NCBI GenBank assembly: GCA_902519235.1
Contig: CABYJE010000010.1
Location: 1-33,732 of the forward strand
DNA from: an uncultured Prochlorococcus sp.
Lineage (GTDB): Bacteria > Cyanobacteriota > Cyanobacteriia > PCC-6307 > Cyanobiaceae
DNA: 33,732 nt
Reading direction: 5' to 3'
A program made the translations under genes and the position numbers. Below are positions 8,770 to 17,608 of the stretch, piece after piece; position 1 is the first letter of the stretch; each line of letters starts with the position of its first letter. Under the pieces are notes generated by a model. That model did no database searches and was not told the origin of the DNA. It was given only the letters and a program-made list of their open reading frames with translations.

Positions 8770-8889
8770 ATGAAGACGCAAATTTTTAAAAAGCAATACA
8801 TCCCAAATGTTCATGCTATTACTCTTTTACTAATGCTTCTTCTATGTCTGTGGTTACCTCTTGCACTCAGATTCTTATTAATAATTTAG
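8770..8889 (+). CDS. Single-helix membrane microprotein (39 aa)
   Basis: A basic start (MKTQIFKKQYIPNVHA) and one long Leu-rich helix (ITLLLMLLLCLWLPLALRFL). It follows the previous microprotein by only three bases, suggesting a two-gene unit. Function unknown. Confidence 0.45.
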   Translation: MKTQIFKKQYIPNVHAITLLLMLLLCLWLPLALRFLLII

Positions 8890-8917
8890 TCGAACTAATT
8901 AGCTAATACTCTCATCT

Positions 8918-9307
8918 TTAAAATCTGCTATAACCTAATTTTGTTTTAAAGATCTTATATGGAACTCCTGTTCCGTTCATTGCTTCAATTACTTTATCTC
9001 CAACAGTTCCATAGAATTCAACAGAAAGATCAGTTCCTAGTGCAGCATGAGCCTCAAGATAAACACCTAAAGCTGGATTAGCTAAATGAGCTAGTAAAGC
9101 ATCATCGTTTTTATAAACTTCTGACCATACGAAACGAAGAGGCTCATCAGGATCTTGATCAAAAGTATGATGGAGCATTCCTGGTTCGTCAGCTTCAACA
9201 GCTTTATCTGTCCTATCCGCAATTTCTAAGTATTCTGCAACCTTATCTTCCTTTACTTTAATTTTTGCAAGAAGCATAAATGGAGTGTCTGATCCAAAAC
9301 TCGTCAT
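8918..9307 (-). CDS. ABM-domain (putative quinol monooxygenase-like) protein
   Basis: 129 residues starting MTSFGSDTPFMLLAKIKV. The central part (EYLEIADRTDKAVEADEPGM, then LHHTFDQDP and RFVWSEVYKNDDALLAHL) fits the antibiotic biosynthesis monooxygenase domain, a dimeric ferredoxin-like barrel seen in YgiN-type enzymes and other small oxygenases. The substrate is unknown. The frame extends to an ATG at 9352, but the start at 9307 fits the family and directly follows eight T, as in two neighbouring genes. Codons are GC-richer than nearby genes, suggesting strong expression. Its leader contains a 15-base sequence complementary to a small RNA encoded just upstream. Confidence 0.7.
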   Translation of the reverse strand: MTSFGSDTPFMLLAKIKVKEDKVAEYLEIADRTDKAVEADEPGMLHHTFDQDPDEPLRFVWSEVYKNDDALLAHLANPALGVYLEAHAALGTDLSVEFYGTVGDKVIEAMNGTGVPYKIFKTKLGYSRF

Positions 9308-9329
9308 AAAAAAAAGACTCTTGCGAGCC

Positions 9330-9344
9330 TGGGTGATGGGGATT
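9330..9344. repeat. 15-bp repeat, copy 1 (ABM gene leader)
   Basis: TGGGTGATGGGGATT on the plus strand, identical to 9443-9457. On the minus strand it lies 23-37 bases before the ABM start codon, so the mRNA leader would carry AAUCCCCAUCACCCA, complementary to the second copy. Confidence 0.75.
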
Positions 9345-9402
9345 CCTATCATGACAAATTAATTAGAAACAAACAACTCCATCAATAGTTAATTTTTATT
9401 AC

Positions 9403-9430
9403 TTACAAACACCATATGTAGTGCTATGAT
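9403..9430 (+). promoter_or_regulatory. Promoter-like sequence for the small RNA
   Basis: TTACAA at 9403-9408, a 16-base spacer, and TATGAT at 9425-9430 form a good sigma-70-type promoter. Transcription would start near 9437, with no gene following before a terminator at 9475-9498. Confidence 0.5.
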
Positions 9431-9436
9431 TTTTAA

Positions 9437-9498
9437 AAAGGTTGGGTGATGGGGATTATCCCGCTTTTTGACTGGGGCGAAGCTAACGCCCTTTTTTT
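9437..9498 (+). ncRNA. Candidate small RNA (about 62 nt)
   Basis: A promoter-like sequence (9403-9430), no reading frame and a strong intrinsic terminator (9475-9498) together define a short plus-strand transcript. All genes around it are on the minus strand, so the terminator has no other obvious use. Its 5' part holds UGGGUGAUGGGGAUU (9443-9457), an exact complement of the leader of the ABM gene 100 bases away. I do not recognise it as a named Yfr RNA; the exact ends are inferred. Confidence 0.5.
9475..9498 (+). terminator. Intrinsic terminator of the small RNA
   Basis: GGGCG (9475-9479) pairs with CGCCC (9487-9491) around an AAGCTAA loop and is followed by seven T (9492-9498). The T-run is only on the plus strand. 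It ends over the stop codon of the minus-strand gene at 9497. Confidence 0.75.
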
Positions 9499-9646
9499 AT
9501 GGATATAACTTTTTAATAGCTTCTTTTTGTTCTTGTTTTTTTATTTCTTCAGCATCATAAACAGGACAAATATTCTGATTAAGTGATGTTAAAAAAGCTC
9601 TTTTTTTAAAAAGTTTGAATATAGGAGTCAATAGTAAACGTTTCAT
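9497..9646 (-). CDS. Small basic protein with MKRLL start (49 aa)
   Basis: Begins MKRLLLTPIFKLFKKRAFLT and continues SLNQNICPVYDAEEIKKQEQ, ending KKLYP. The first bases (ATGAAACGTTTACTA) match the leaders at 41 and 3468 except for one base, but here the stretch after the leader is basic rather than a clear signal peptide. One cysteine. It is on the minus strand with the DUF1651/DUF3303/DUF3764 group. Confidence 0.5.
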   Translation of the reverse strand: MKRLLLTPIFKLFKKRAFLTSLNQNICPVYDAEEIKKQEQKEAIKKLYP

Positions 9647-9677
9647 TTTTTATATATGCTTTATGGCTCAAACATAC

Positions 9678-9935
9678 TTATCTCCCTTTTTTATTCCAAA
9701 CTTCCTCAGTTTTACTCCATCCATGAGCGATTAACCTTTCATAAATTTCTCTAGCTAAATCTATATCTACAGAAATTGTTGTTGTCATTACAGGTGGTTC
9801 TTTTCCAAACACACCAACTATTTTTCCAGTATCTACAAACATATACTCAAAAACACCATCTACACTCTTATCGTTTTTGATAAATCTTTTTACTTCTGTT
9901 CTTTTTGAGTTAATCAACCAATAAGATTTATTCAT
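9678..9935 (-). CDS. DUF1651 family protein
   Basis: 85 residues starting MNKSYWLINSKRTEVKRFI. The family signs are the opening xWLI/VxS...RF, the middle YMFVDTGKIVG with KEPPVM, and the closing LAREIYERLIAHGWSKTEEV. DUF1651 is a small protein family largely confined to marine Synechococcus and Prochlorococcus, with no established function. A second member lies at 19700-19948. Soluble, no membrane segment. Confidence 0.75.
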   Translation of the reverse strand: MNKSYWLINSKRTEVKRFIKNDKSVDGVFEYMFVDTGKIVGVFGKEPPVMTTTISVDIDLAREIYERLIAHGWSKTEEVWNKKGR

Positions 9936-9967
9936 TAATTAAAAAGGTATCAGTAATAAGCCTTTCA

Positions 9968-10249
9968 TTAACAATATAGAGCTACTGTTTGATCTAAATC
10001 TGCACAAGGTTCAATAGTAAATTCCAATAATTCTCTCCAAGGACTCCACTGTTTCCAAATAGTTTCTAAAGAATCAGCATCTACAACAGAGAAACCATTG
10101 CCATGTTGAGGTAAGAAAATCCAAGATTTAACGTCGTAACCCTCCGGTCTATTTTGTGGCCCTCCTTTGTAGTACCATTCTTTTAACATTTTTGATCCCT
10201 TGTCTTGGGCATTTGCATCATTAAATTTATAAGAAATTAAAAAAAGCAT
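9968..10249 (-). CDS. DUF3303-like protein (first copy)
   Basis: 93 residues starting MLFLISYKFNDANAQDKGSK, then PEGYDVKSWIFLPQHGNGFS and VVDADSLETIWKQWSPW, ending with EFTIEPCADLDQTVAL. This follows the DUF3303 pattern: a short strand, a helix, GxKxxxxW, a xGF strand, a helix with W..W and a final strand, probably a ferredoxin-like fold. Function of the family is unknown. A second, divergent copy lies at 10620-10940, with the DUF3764 gene between them. Confidence 0.7.
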   Translation of the reverse strand: MLFLISYKFNDANAQDKGSKMLKEWYYKGGPQNRPEGYDVKSWIFLPQHGNGFSVVDADSLETIWKQWSPWRELLEFTIEPCADLDQTVALYC

Positions 10250-10288
10250 AGATAAATAGTTTTTTAAAGTAATTTTATGAGTCTAAAT

Positions 10289-10567
10289 TTAAAAATAACT
10301 TGATATGACAGTCGAATCATAAATATGACCTGCACTCTCAATTAATGGCTTCACTGCTGGATCTTGAAACATAGCTATTGATTTACCTTCTTCACCCTGT
10401 TCAATAAGAATTACACTGGTTGGATCATCTTTCTTTACTCCTTTATATAAGCAAACAATTCCCCGTTCTTTATTCATTTGTATATTTTCTTGGCTGTCAT
10501 AAACTGCAGCCCATTCCTCATAAGGCACGCTTATTTTGAATGTAAAAACAGTAGTTTCAAGAGTCAT
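10289..10567 (-). CDS. DUF3764 family protein
   Basis: 92 residues starting MTLETTVFTFKISVPYEEWA. The sequence AVYDSQENIQMNKERGI, the strand CLYKGVKKDDP, and the end AMFQDPAVKPLIESAGHIYD with STVISSYF are typical of DUF3764, a small family of marine cyanobacteria and some others with a probable dimeric alpha-beta-barrel fold. The start codon directly follows seven T that also form the U-run of an upstream terminator (10568-10591), and no ribosome binding site lies between. Confidence 0.75.
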   Translation of the reverse strand: MTLETTVFTFKISVPYEEWAAVYDSQENIQMNKERGIVCLYKGVKKDDPTSVILIEQGEEGKSIAMFQDPAVKPLIESAGHIYDSTVISSYF

Positions 10568-17261: not shown

Positions 17262-17403
17262 GATATTTGATTTCCTTCTTACAGGACATAAGATTACATA
17301 TTTTAAAGTCTATTTACTCATAAACCTAGAATACGTGAATTCGGGGATTTATCTCGATAATTTCAGTTCCTATTGTCGCTAGTAATTATAAAGCGAAGTC
17401 TTA

Positions 17404-17505
17404 TCAGACTAATTGATTGAACTTTATTTTTCGAATAATCCCATTCTCAGGAATACGCTTCCTATATTTTGGAATTTGCTAAATTTCAGGCGGACTTTCA
17501 ATCAT
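17404..17505 (-). pseudogene. Interrupted small frame with good ribosome binding site
   Basis: GGAGG at 17519-17515 precedes an ATG at 17505. The frame reads MIESPPEI, a TAG (17481-17479), then 24 more codons (QIPKYRKRIPENGIIRKIKF, NQLV) to TGA. The second part looks protein-like, but a chance open stretch of this length is possible in AT-rich DNA. Confidence 0.3.
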
Positions 17506-17608
17506 TTAGATTGCCTCCGAACTCAACATTTATAAATTACTCCTTTTTATATTTTCAGTAAATCCGTAAATATGCTGATTTACTTTTTTCTTTAATTGTA
17601 GGAGGATT

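Follow-up and report, generated by a model that had tools for sequence, protein, structure and literature searches.

A stretch of 33,732 nucleotides from an uncultured Prochlorococcus sp. (positions 1 to 33,732 of contig CABYJE010000010.1; this whole stretch is referred to as the window) carries the same 15 bases twice next to a gene for an ABM-domain protein. This raises the question of whether the repeat marks a small RNA that regulates its neighbour, as proposed in a sequence-only reading of the locus, or whether the target has to be sought elsewhere.

Two 15-mers within a conserved cassette

The motif TGGGTGATGGGGATT is present on the plus strand of the window in two exact copies, at 9330-9344 (copy 1) and at 9443-9457 (copy 2), just as had been claimed. 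When up to three mismatches are allowed, three occurrences are found in the window against 0.51 expected, a number that was reached in none of 100 shuffles. The promoter-like sequence and the terminator proposed around copy 2 were both recovered. Sequence scanning and alignment place the former, CTTACA-17-TATGAT with an extended -10 element, at 9402-9430 on the plus strand, and the latter at 9474-9492, followed by a T-run up to 9498. The promoter match by itself lies within chance (two sites versus 5.6 expected in 8800-10300). The TAGTGCT ahead of the -10 element is the same in all 50 aligned copies of the surrounding cassette, and a copy from MIT0604 (L088), which lies outside that alignment, reads TAGTTCT instead. 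Terminator-like sites number three in 8800-10300, versus 0.6 expected. Promoter-like site, terminator, predicted hairpin and conservation together point to a plus-strand RNA of about 62 nt (9436-9498, with an estimated 5' end), in which copy 2 would reside in a long hairpin exposing GGGG at 9451-9454. That this RNA encodes a peptide was considered and dismissed since the frame after GUG AUG GGG, judged by eye, is unconserved among genera.

On the minus strand, the complement of copy 1 lies 23-37 bases 5' of the ABM start codon when the gene is taken to start at 9307, in agreement with the earlier description. What had been missed is a minus-strand terminator-like hairpin between the 15-mer and this start codon. 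The sequence AGGCUC-GCAA-GAGUCU (9330-9315) is followed by eight U that reach the ABM start codon, the complete element occupying 9308-9330. This terminator-like end, the motif complement just 5' of it and an internal stem suggest a second RNA, termed minus RNA or antisense RNA, with an approximate length of 80-95 nt (9308-9398, minus strand, the 5' end again being an estimate). Copy 1 (9330-9344) would read AAUCCCCAUCACCCA in this RNA, which is complementary to copy 2 and largely so to the start of a sigma factor gene, rpoD4, discussed below. Folding and alignment identify a further element, GAUGGAG at 9378-9384 on the minus strand, which can pair inside the minus RNA with CCCCAUC and reads GAUGGGG in the aligned copies that do not adjoin ABM. 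A convincing -35/-10 pair for a minus RNA promoter was not found. Between the two RNAs, at 9410-9423, the sequence CACCATATGTAGTG forms a dyad that may serve as an operator and has relatives elsewhere in forms such as CACTA-N4-TAGTG. Dyads like CACTATAAATAGTG and CACTACAGATAGTG are recurrent in the cassettes and, by their sequence, seem to resemble sites for some regulator.

Judged by sequence conservation, both 15-mers are parts of one cassette of about 195 bp (9308-9503). In the alignment of 50 copies, identity begins with the A-run (9308), extends to the T-run (9498) and ceases where the neighbours differ. A 221-base query matched 168 of the 200 genus genomes, with one to four matches in each and at most four candidates scored per genome; of the 66 with a completeness of 90% or more and a contamination of 5% or less, 63 matched. 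The genome from which the window stems contains a second cassette (G000:C7:520-713) with a near-identical motif pair at C7:542 and C7:654, 112 bases apart, and the two cassettes share 91% identity over 196 bases. The second cassette has other neighbours, namely a DUF3303 gene and, on the opposite side, a small frame matching DUF1651 below threshold. A DUF3303 gene is also found in the window at 9968-10249, within a run of small minus-strand frames.

Beyond the genus, a family pattern was applied that consists of GTGATGGGG, 128-156 bases and GTGATGGGGAT, using genomes at least 80% complete plus the window's own at 71%. This longer-spaced two-copy cassette occurs in 57 of 393 family genomes and 14 of 40 genera, at most four times in any one genome. 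The home genus does not enter this figure, as its spacing is shorter. The reversed pattern, which served as a control, gave no matches in the 393 family genomes. The loci inspected from other genera share a common plan: an A-run, a minus-strand hairpin, copy 1, dyad-like sequences, copy 2 and a plus-strand terminator-like end. The hairpin stems beside copy 1 vary in sequence, with pairing kept in most predicted folds. Thirteen distinct loci with the plus motif were read outside the genus set (L227-L236, L246, L207 and L201; L212 repeats L228). At six of them copy 1 is present in divergent orientation, at two (L232, L234) the antisense and the plus RNA share a strand, and next to five (L229, L231, L246, L207, L201) no antisense copy was recognized by eye. 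G281 and G201 appear to possess an antisense RNA that has a terminator-like end of its own and is encoded in the direction of the plus RNA (e.g., L232:1370-1435). Antisense genes that have no second copy within 600 bases are found in G249, G281 and G201 (L355, L350 and L340, around position 1500). A pattern scan of genome contigs matched at least 119 stretches, of which those without a cassette model were read individually, and the non-cyanobacterial stretches among the matches listed resemble chance matches. A phage origin of the cassette is unsupported, as six matches in phages of other hosts are weak (E 0.2) and four pattern matches in IMG/VR do not resemble the cassette.

ABM is unlikely to be the main target

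The ABM-domain gene (8918-9307, minus strand; PF03992, E 1.9e-12) has its start codon directly after the minus terminator. The A-run varies in length between copies, which makes an in-frame upstream ATG at 9352 an improbable start. Among 70 matches to a CAT/A-run pattern, which include overlapping records and a few places unrelated to ABM, the run after CAT is eight bases long in 57 and six, seven, nine or ten bases long in 13.

According to the sequence-only reading, the plus RNA regulates ABM by pairing with its leader, an effect that could consist in repression or in relief of the leader terminator. Indeed, the complementarity is exact, the ABM start codon follows right after the minus T-run, and ABM directly adjoins the A-run side in 47 of the 130 distinct full cassette copies that were gathered for variation and neighbour counts. 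However, 80 of these copies have no ABM match in the available flank (the remaining three have less than 300 bases of flank), and such matches are likewise absent from all 43 loci from other genera or records, whether cassettes or single plus-RNA motifs. In addition, the terminator lies between the 15-mer and the start of ABM, and leader pairing does not account for the conserved start of rpoD4. We consider regulation of ABM by leader pairing quite unlikely, and the RNA probably has its main target elsewhere. What is supported of the proposal is a gene for a short plus-strand RNA that has a terminator and a conserved promoter block and whose complementarity to a minus-strand RNA is conserved, while ABM as its essential target is not supported. 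Equally, a recent local duplication as the source of the two 15-mers is unsupported because no more than about 15 bases are common to the copies and the arrangement with two of them persists across genera.

Read-through of the minus terminator may couple ABM, or another adjoining gene, to the cassette. In each synteny class, an ATG frame directly follows a T-run of the cassette; in the window this is ABM, on the minus side, and at C7 it is the small frame with the weak DUF1651 similarity, on the plus side (L008:709-966).

The motif recurs at the start of rpoD4

In the window's own genome, the motif has a third bearer, the start of a sigma gene (C1:135932) whose product contains Sigma70 domains. 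Of the bearers beyond the cassette it is the best conserved. The sense motif forms the beginning of the group 2 sigma gene rpoD4, GGAGGCCAGGGTG-ATG-GGG-ATC-CCT, and is strongly conserved at the nucleotide level. A start reading AGGAGGCCAGGGTG-ATG-GGG-ATC-CCT-CTG-GAA-TCT is near-constant across many genera. The sequence GGTGATGGGGATC was found in all eight genus genomes searched, and in all six that were also searched with the sigma protein it is located at the sigma gene. When GGTGATGGGGATT was searched in eight genomes with at most one mismatch, the variants common to all eight were solely the ones in the cassette copies and the rpoD4 sequence GGTGATGGGGATC; the variant GGTGATGGTGATT is present in four of the eight. 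This result bears on the possibility that the plus RNA is a trans-acting regulator of other C-rich targets with the minus RNA as its sponge, the likeness to rpoD4 being incidental. Such a function would be in line with copy 2 varying less than copy 1 among the 130 distinct copies of the genus, but it is very unlikely given the outcome of the search and the fact that rpoD4 carries the sense sequence, to which the plus RNA could not bind as an antisense.

The degree of conservation was assessed for 36 distinct rpoD4 orthologues, which were chosen by the presence of GTGATGGGG followed by ATC or ATT, so that positions -3 to +6 (codons 1 and 2) are invariant by construction and codon 3 is nearly so. 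Codon 5 is CTG in 35 of the orthologues, codon 6 is GAA in 30 and codon 7 is TCT in 31. Upstream of the start codon, AG at -11, CC at -8 and GG at -5 are fixed. Of 183 degenerate codons that occur later in the gene at positions with an invariant amino acid, none is fixed, and the mean share of the majority codon is 0.50.

In a set of 52 sigma loci, seven lack GTGATGGGG at the start and nine more lack ATC/ATT at codon 3. All of these 16 non-canonical loci belong to genera without a two-copy cassette by the strict family pattern. One of these genera, g51, has antisense genes in another arrangement. Two genera, g54 and g39, possess the canonical rpoD4 start, yet have no two-copy cassette by the strict pattern. 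The rpoD4 gene of g51 reads GACA, and so do its three antisense loci, which were located by that very pattern. Covariation between antisense and rpoD4 in g51 was set aside because one antisense locus of G201 does not follow, reading GACA while rpoD4 of G201 has GATC. The minus RNA appears to have retained the complementarity to the rpoD4 start that would be demanded of an antisense regulator.

Genome G015, which we take to be MED4, contains a cassette at 348775-348967 on the minus strand. A diverged MED4 copy reads GGCCAGGTGATGGGGA, compared with GGCCAGGGTGATGGGGA in rpoD4. MED4 carries five sigma genes, by position PMM0496, 0577, 1289, 1629 and 1697, and from the gene order we infer that the motif-bearing one is PMM1697. 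In the text available from the respective sources, PMM1697 is named RpoD4 (PMC2921402) and described as cycling daily (PMC2663038), rising on nitrogen depletion (PMC2758279) and being lower under UV at one time point, with significance only before correction (PMC2921402). It is also given among the predicted targets of Yfr1 that were found to be pseudo targets (PMC3142192).

A conserved AGTGCTA or a near form of it is located about 40-50 bases before the start of rpoD4 (L250-L273). An identical AGTGCTA is present in the plus RNA promoter of high-light genomes, at its -10 (9420-9426 in the window).

Variation preserves pairing between the two proposed RNAs

The earlier note had named independent drift of the paired 15-mers in relatives as an argument against its reading. 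Across the 130 copies the 15-mers do not drift independently, because variants at positions 2-14 of copy 1 never break pairing. When copy 1 and copy 2 of the same element are compared, no mismatch is present at positions 2-14, a single one, resulting from a change in copy 2, is found at position 15, and 26 are found at position 1. Seven variants occur at positions 2-15 of copy 1, all seven are transitions and all keep a Watson-Crick or G-U pair with the usual base of copy 2. In the other 179 columns of the element, 99 transitions stand against 153 transversions. At this background rate the chance of seven successive transitions is about 0.0014, a value that counts each variant once and ignores shared descent as well as the internal stem of the minus RNA. 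The copy-1 variants at positions 2-4, 10 and 11 also keep pairing with rpoD4. The plus RNA in turn appears to have conserved the complementarity to a small RNA that a decoy, or sponge, would need.

The hairpin beside copy 1 is informative about the transcribed strand, since one of its pairs is G-U when read on the minus strand and would turn into an A-C mismatch on the plus strand. It folds better on the minus strand in all 16 distinct strings of the genus, which derive from 126 of the 130 elements. Of 31 strings from outside the genus, 22 favour the minus strand and seven the plus strand. These observations also bear on the view that the cassette is a mobile repeat which is maintained by copying and has no regulatory function, as might be suspected from genomes that contain multiple, scattered copies. 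Pair-preserving variation of copy 1, the strand preference of its hairpin in the genus and the retention of the plan across genera despite diverged sequence all speak against such an element, and we regard it as highly improbable.

Predicted structures and a model for control of rpoD4

The rpoD4 start is predicted to fold as CCAGGG-U-GAU(GGGG)AUC-C-CUCUGG and the plus RNA to form a longer hairpin with UGAU(GGGG)AUUA, such that the two have a GAU-GGGG-AUY tip in common. The predicted interaction energy of the minus RNA is -52.7 kcal/mol with the rpoD4 start and -46.6 kcal/mol with the plus RNA; net of each RNA's own fold, the values are -17.6 and -15.4, respectively. None of 500 shuffled targets is as low as either pairing energy. 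The z-scores for the folds themselves are weak (-1.96 for the plus RNA, -1.09 for the minus RNA and -0.46 for the rpoD4 start). Covariation in the plus RNA hairpin is modest, with nine two-sided cells, as many as occur in five of 500 shuffles; pairs with two-sided change and further pair types in this hairpin are not above shuffles, and RNAalifold reports just two pairs for its alignment. In other genera, at most four of the nine seed bases CCCCAUCAC are unpaired in 21 of 33 predicted folds of the minus RNA, and all are free in five of 33. Some of these minus RNAs are predicted to pair CCCCAU with GGGG at their own 5' end and could be self-limiting in this way.

The main rival to an antisense function is a protein that reads the GGGG hairpin. 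An RNA-binding protein would recognize the GAU-GGGG-AUY hairpin of rpoD4, the plus RNA would titrate this protein, and the minus RNA would control the plus RNA only. The hairpin tip is indeed the shared, invariant part of the plus RNA and the rpoD4 start, and the motif itself is folded in both predicted structures, which suits a protein better than antisense pairing. In that case, however, pairing between plus and minus RNA alone would have to account for the G-U-preserving changes in copy 1 and for the conservation of the minus terminator, and the additional GGCC complement that the minus RNA has to rpoD4 would be left unexplained. We consider the titration of a protein rather unlikely.

The reading that we prefer, with a chance that we put only slightly above even, is that rpoD4 translation is regulated by the minus RNA as an antisense, for which the plus RNA serves as a decoy. 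This model is derived from sequence anatomy, conservation, complementarity and predicted energies, and both transcripts, their 5' ends and the direction and sign of regulation are deduced from these. Each strand of the cassette would encode one small RNA. Of these, the minus RNA, bearing (A)AUCCCCAUCACC right before its terminator, would pair with GGGUGAUGGGGAU at the start codon of the rpoD4 mRNA and thereby block ribosome entry or lead to decay. The plus RNA would display the same GGGUGAUGGGGAU in a hairpin with the rpoD4-like GAU-GGGG-AUY tip, titrate the minus RNA and so release rpoD4. For the MED4 cassette (348775-348967), the 5' end of the plus RNA would be expected near the A-run before GGCTGGGTGATGGGG and the 3' end of the minus RNA at the U-run.

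Prochlorococcus has few regulatory proteins. If the model is correct, the paired antisense RNA and start mimic would represent post-transcriptional control of a global regulator that is kept across genera and is often present in multiple copies. It would also account for the strong conservation of silent positions at the rpoD4 start, and it provides direct predictions for cultured strains. We advance more tentatively, at somewhat less than an even chance, the broader proposition that this is a widespread and often multi-copy RpoD4 RNA switch of marine picocyanobacteria, in which an antisense over the start codon and a separate start-hairpin decoy are transcribed in opposite directions from a shared operator-like region. 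The decoy may even be derived from the promoter and start region of rpoD4, because in high-light genomes both have AGTGCTA followed by a T/A-rich stretch.

Relation to known small RNAs

The proposed pair has partial parallels in other systems. SroC, which acts on GcvB, and the chb spacer, which acts on ChiX, are pieces of mRNA with target-like sequence that titrate a small RNA. The proposed plus RNA would likewise carry target-like sequence and titrate a small RNA; in contrast to SroC and the chb spacer, it would be a separate gene that shares the tip of a start-codon hairpin and is linked in one cassette to the RNA it would titrate. CsrB titrates CsrA as a decoy RNA whose hairpin imitates that of a translation start. 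Imitation of a translation start by a hairpin is also what we propose for the plus RNA, but a complementary RNA partner, the minus RNA, sets it apart from decoys of the CsrA/CsrB type.

No Rfam 15 family matched at gathering score over the cassette when the whole window was searched, or over the cassettes in 11 relative loci. Eight sub-threshold matches fall in 9200-9700, none of them cyanobacterial. Within cyanobacteria, a close counterpart is the pair Yfr1/Yfr2 (with the Yfr10 group) of Prochlorococcus, RNAs with near-complementary conserved motifs, some of them side by side, for which mutual neutralisation is proposed in the accessible text of PMC6778093 and PMC2518516. The two small RNAs proposed here resemble them in having complementary conserved motifs and differ in motif and loci, in being encoded on opposite strands of one cassette and in the likeness of the decoy to an mRNA start. 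In the portion of PMC2518516 at hand, no Yfr8-Yfr21 entry of Table 1 covers the MED4 cassette at 348775-348967. Identity with Yfr11/Yfr16 or with others of Yfr2-5 and Yfr8-21 was rejected, as neither GATGGGG nor GTGATGG is found in the 13 MED4 regions retrieved around these genes (Yfr3 being presumed to fall within its region). Yfr103 of LL Prochlorococcus and marine Synechococcus is, as far as the available text of PMC5069720 goes, a multi-copy ncRNA with an imperfect palindrome upstream and paralogues of 290-328 nt. It is similar in being a multi-copy picocyanobacterial RNA preceded by palindrome-like sequence; its identity with the RNAs studied here was rejected by length only, the plus RNA having about 62 nt and the minus RNA less than about 100 nt. 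In the accessible portions of the open-licence literature, no description of this RNA pair or of small-RNA control of rpoD4 was found. One or both RNAs may already bear a Yfr number in the primary transcriptome of MED4/MIT9313.

The sole Rfam match in the window is Yfr8 at 17302-17527 (RF02360, 257.7 bits). In MED4, Yfr8 shares an island region with the cassette, and a Glutamine-II riboswitch is situated about 1.5 kb from the MED4 cassette (L083:3247-3309).
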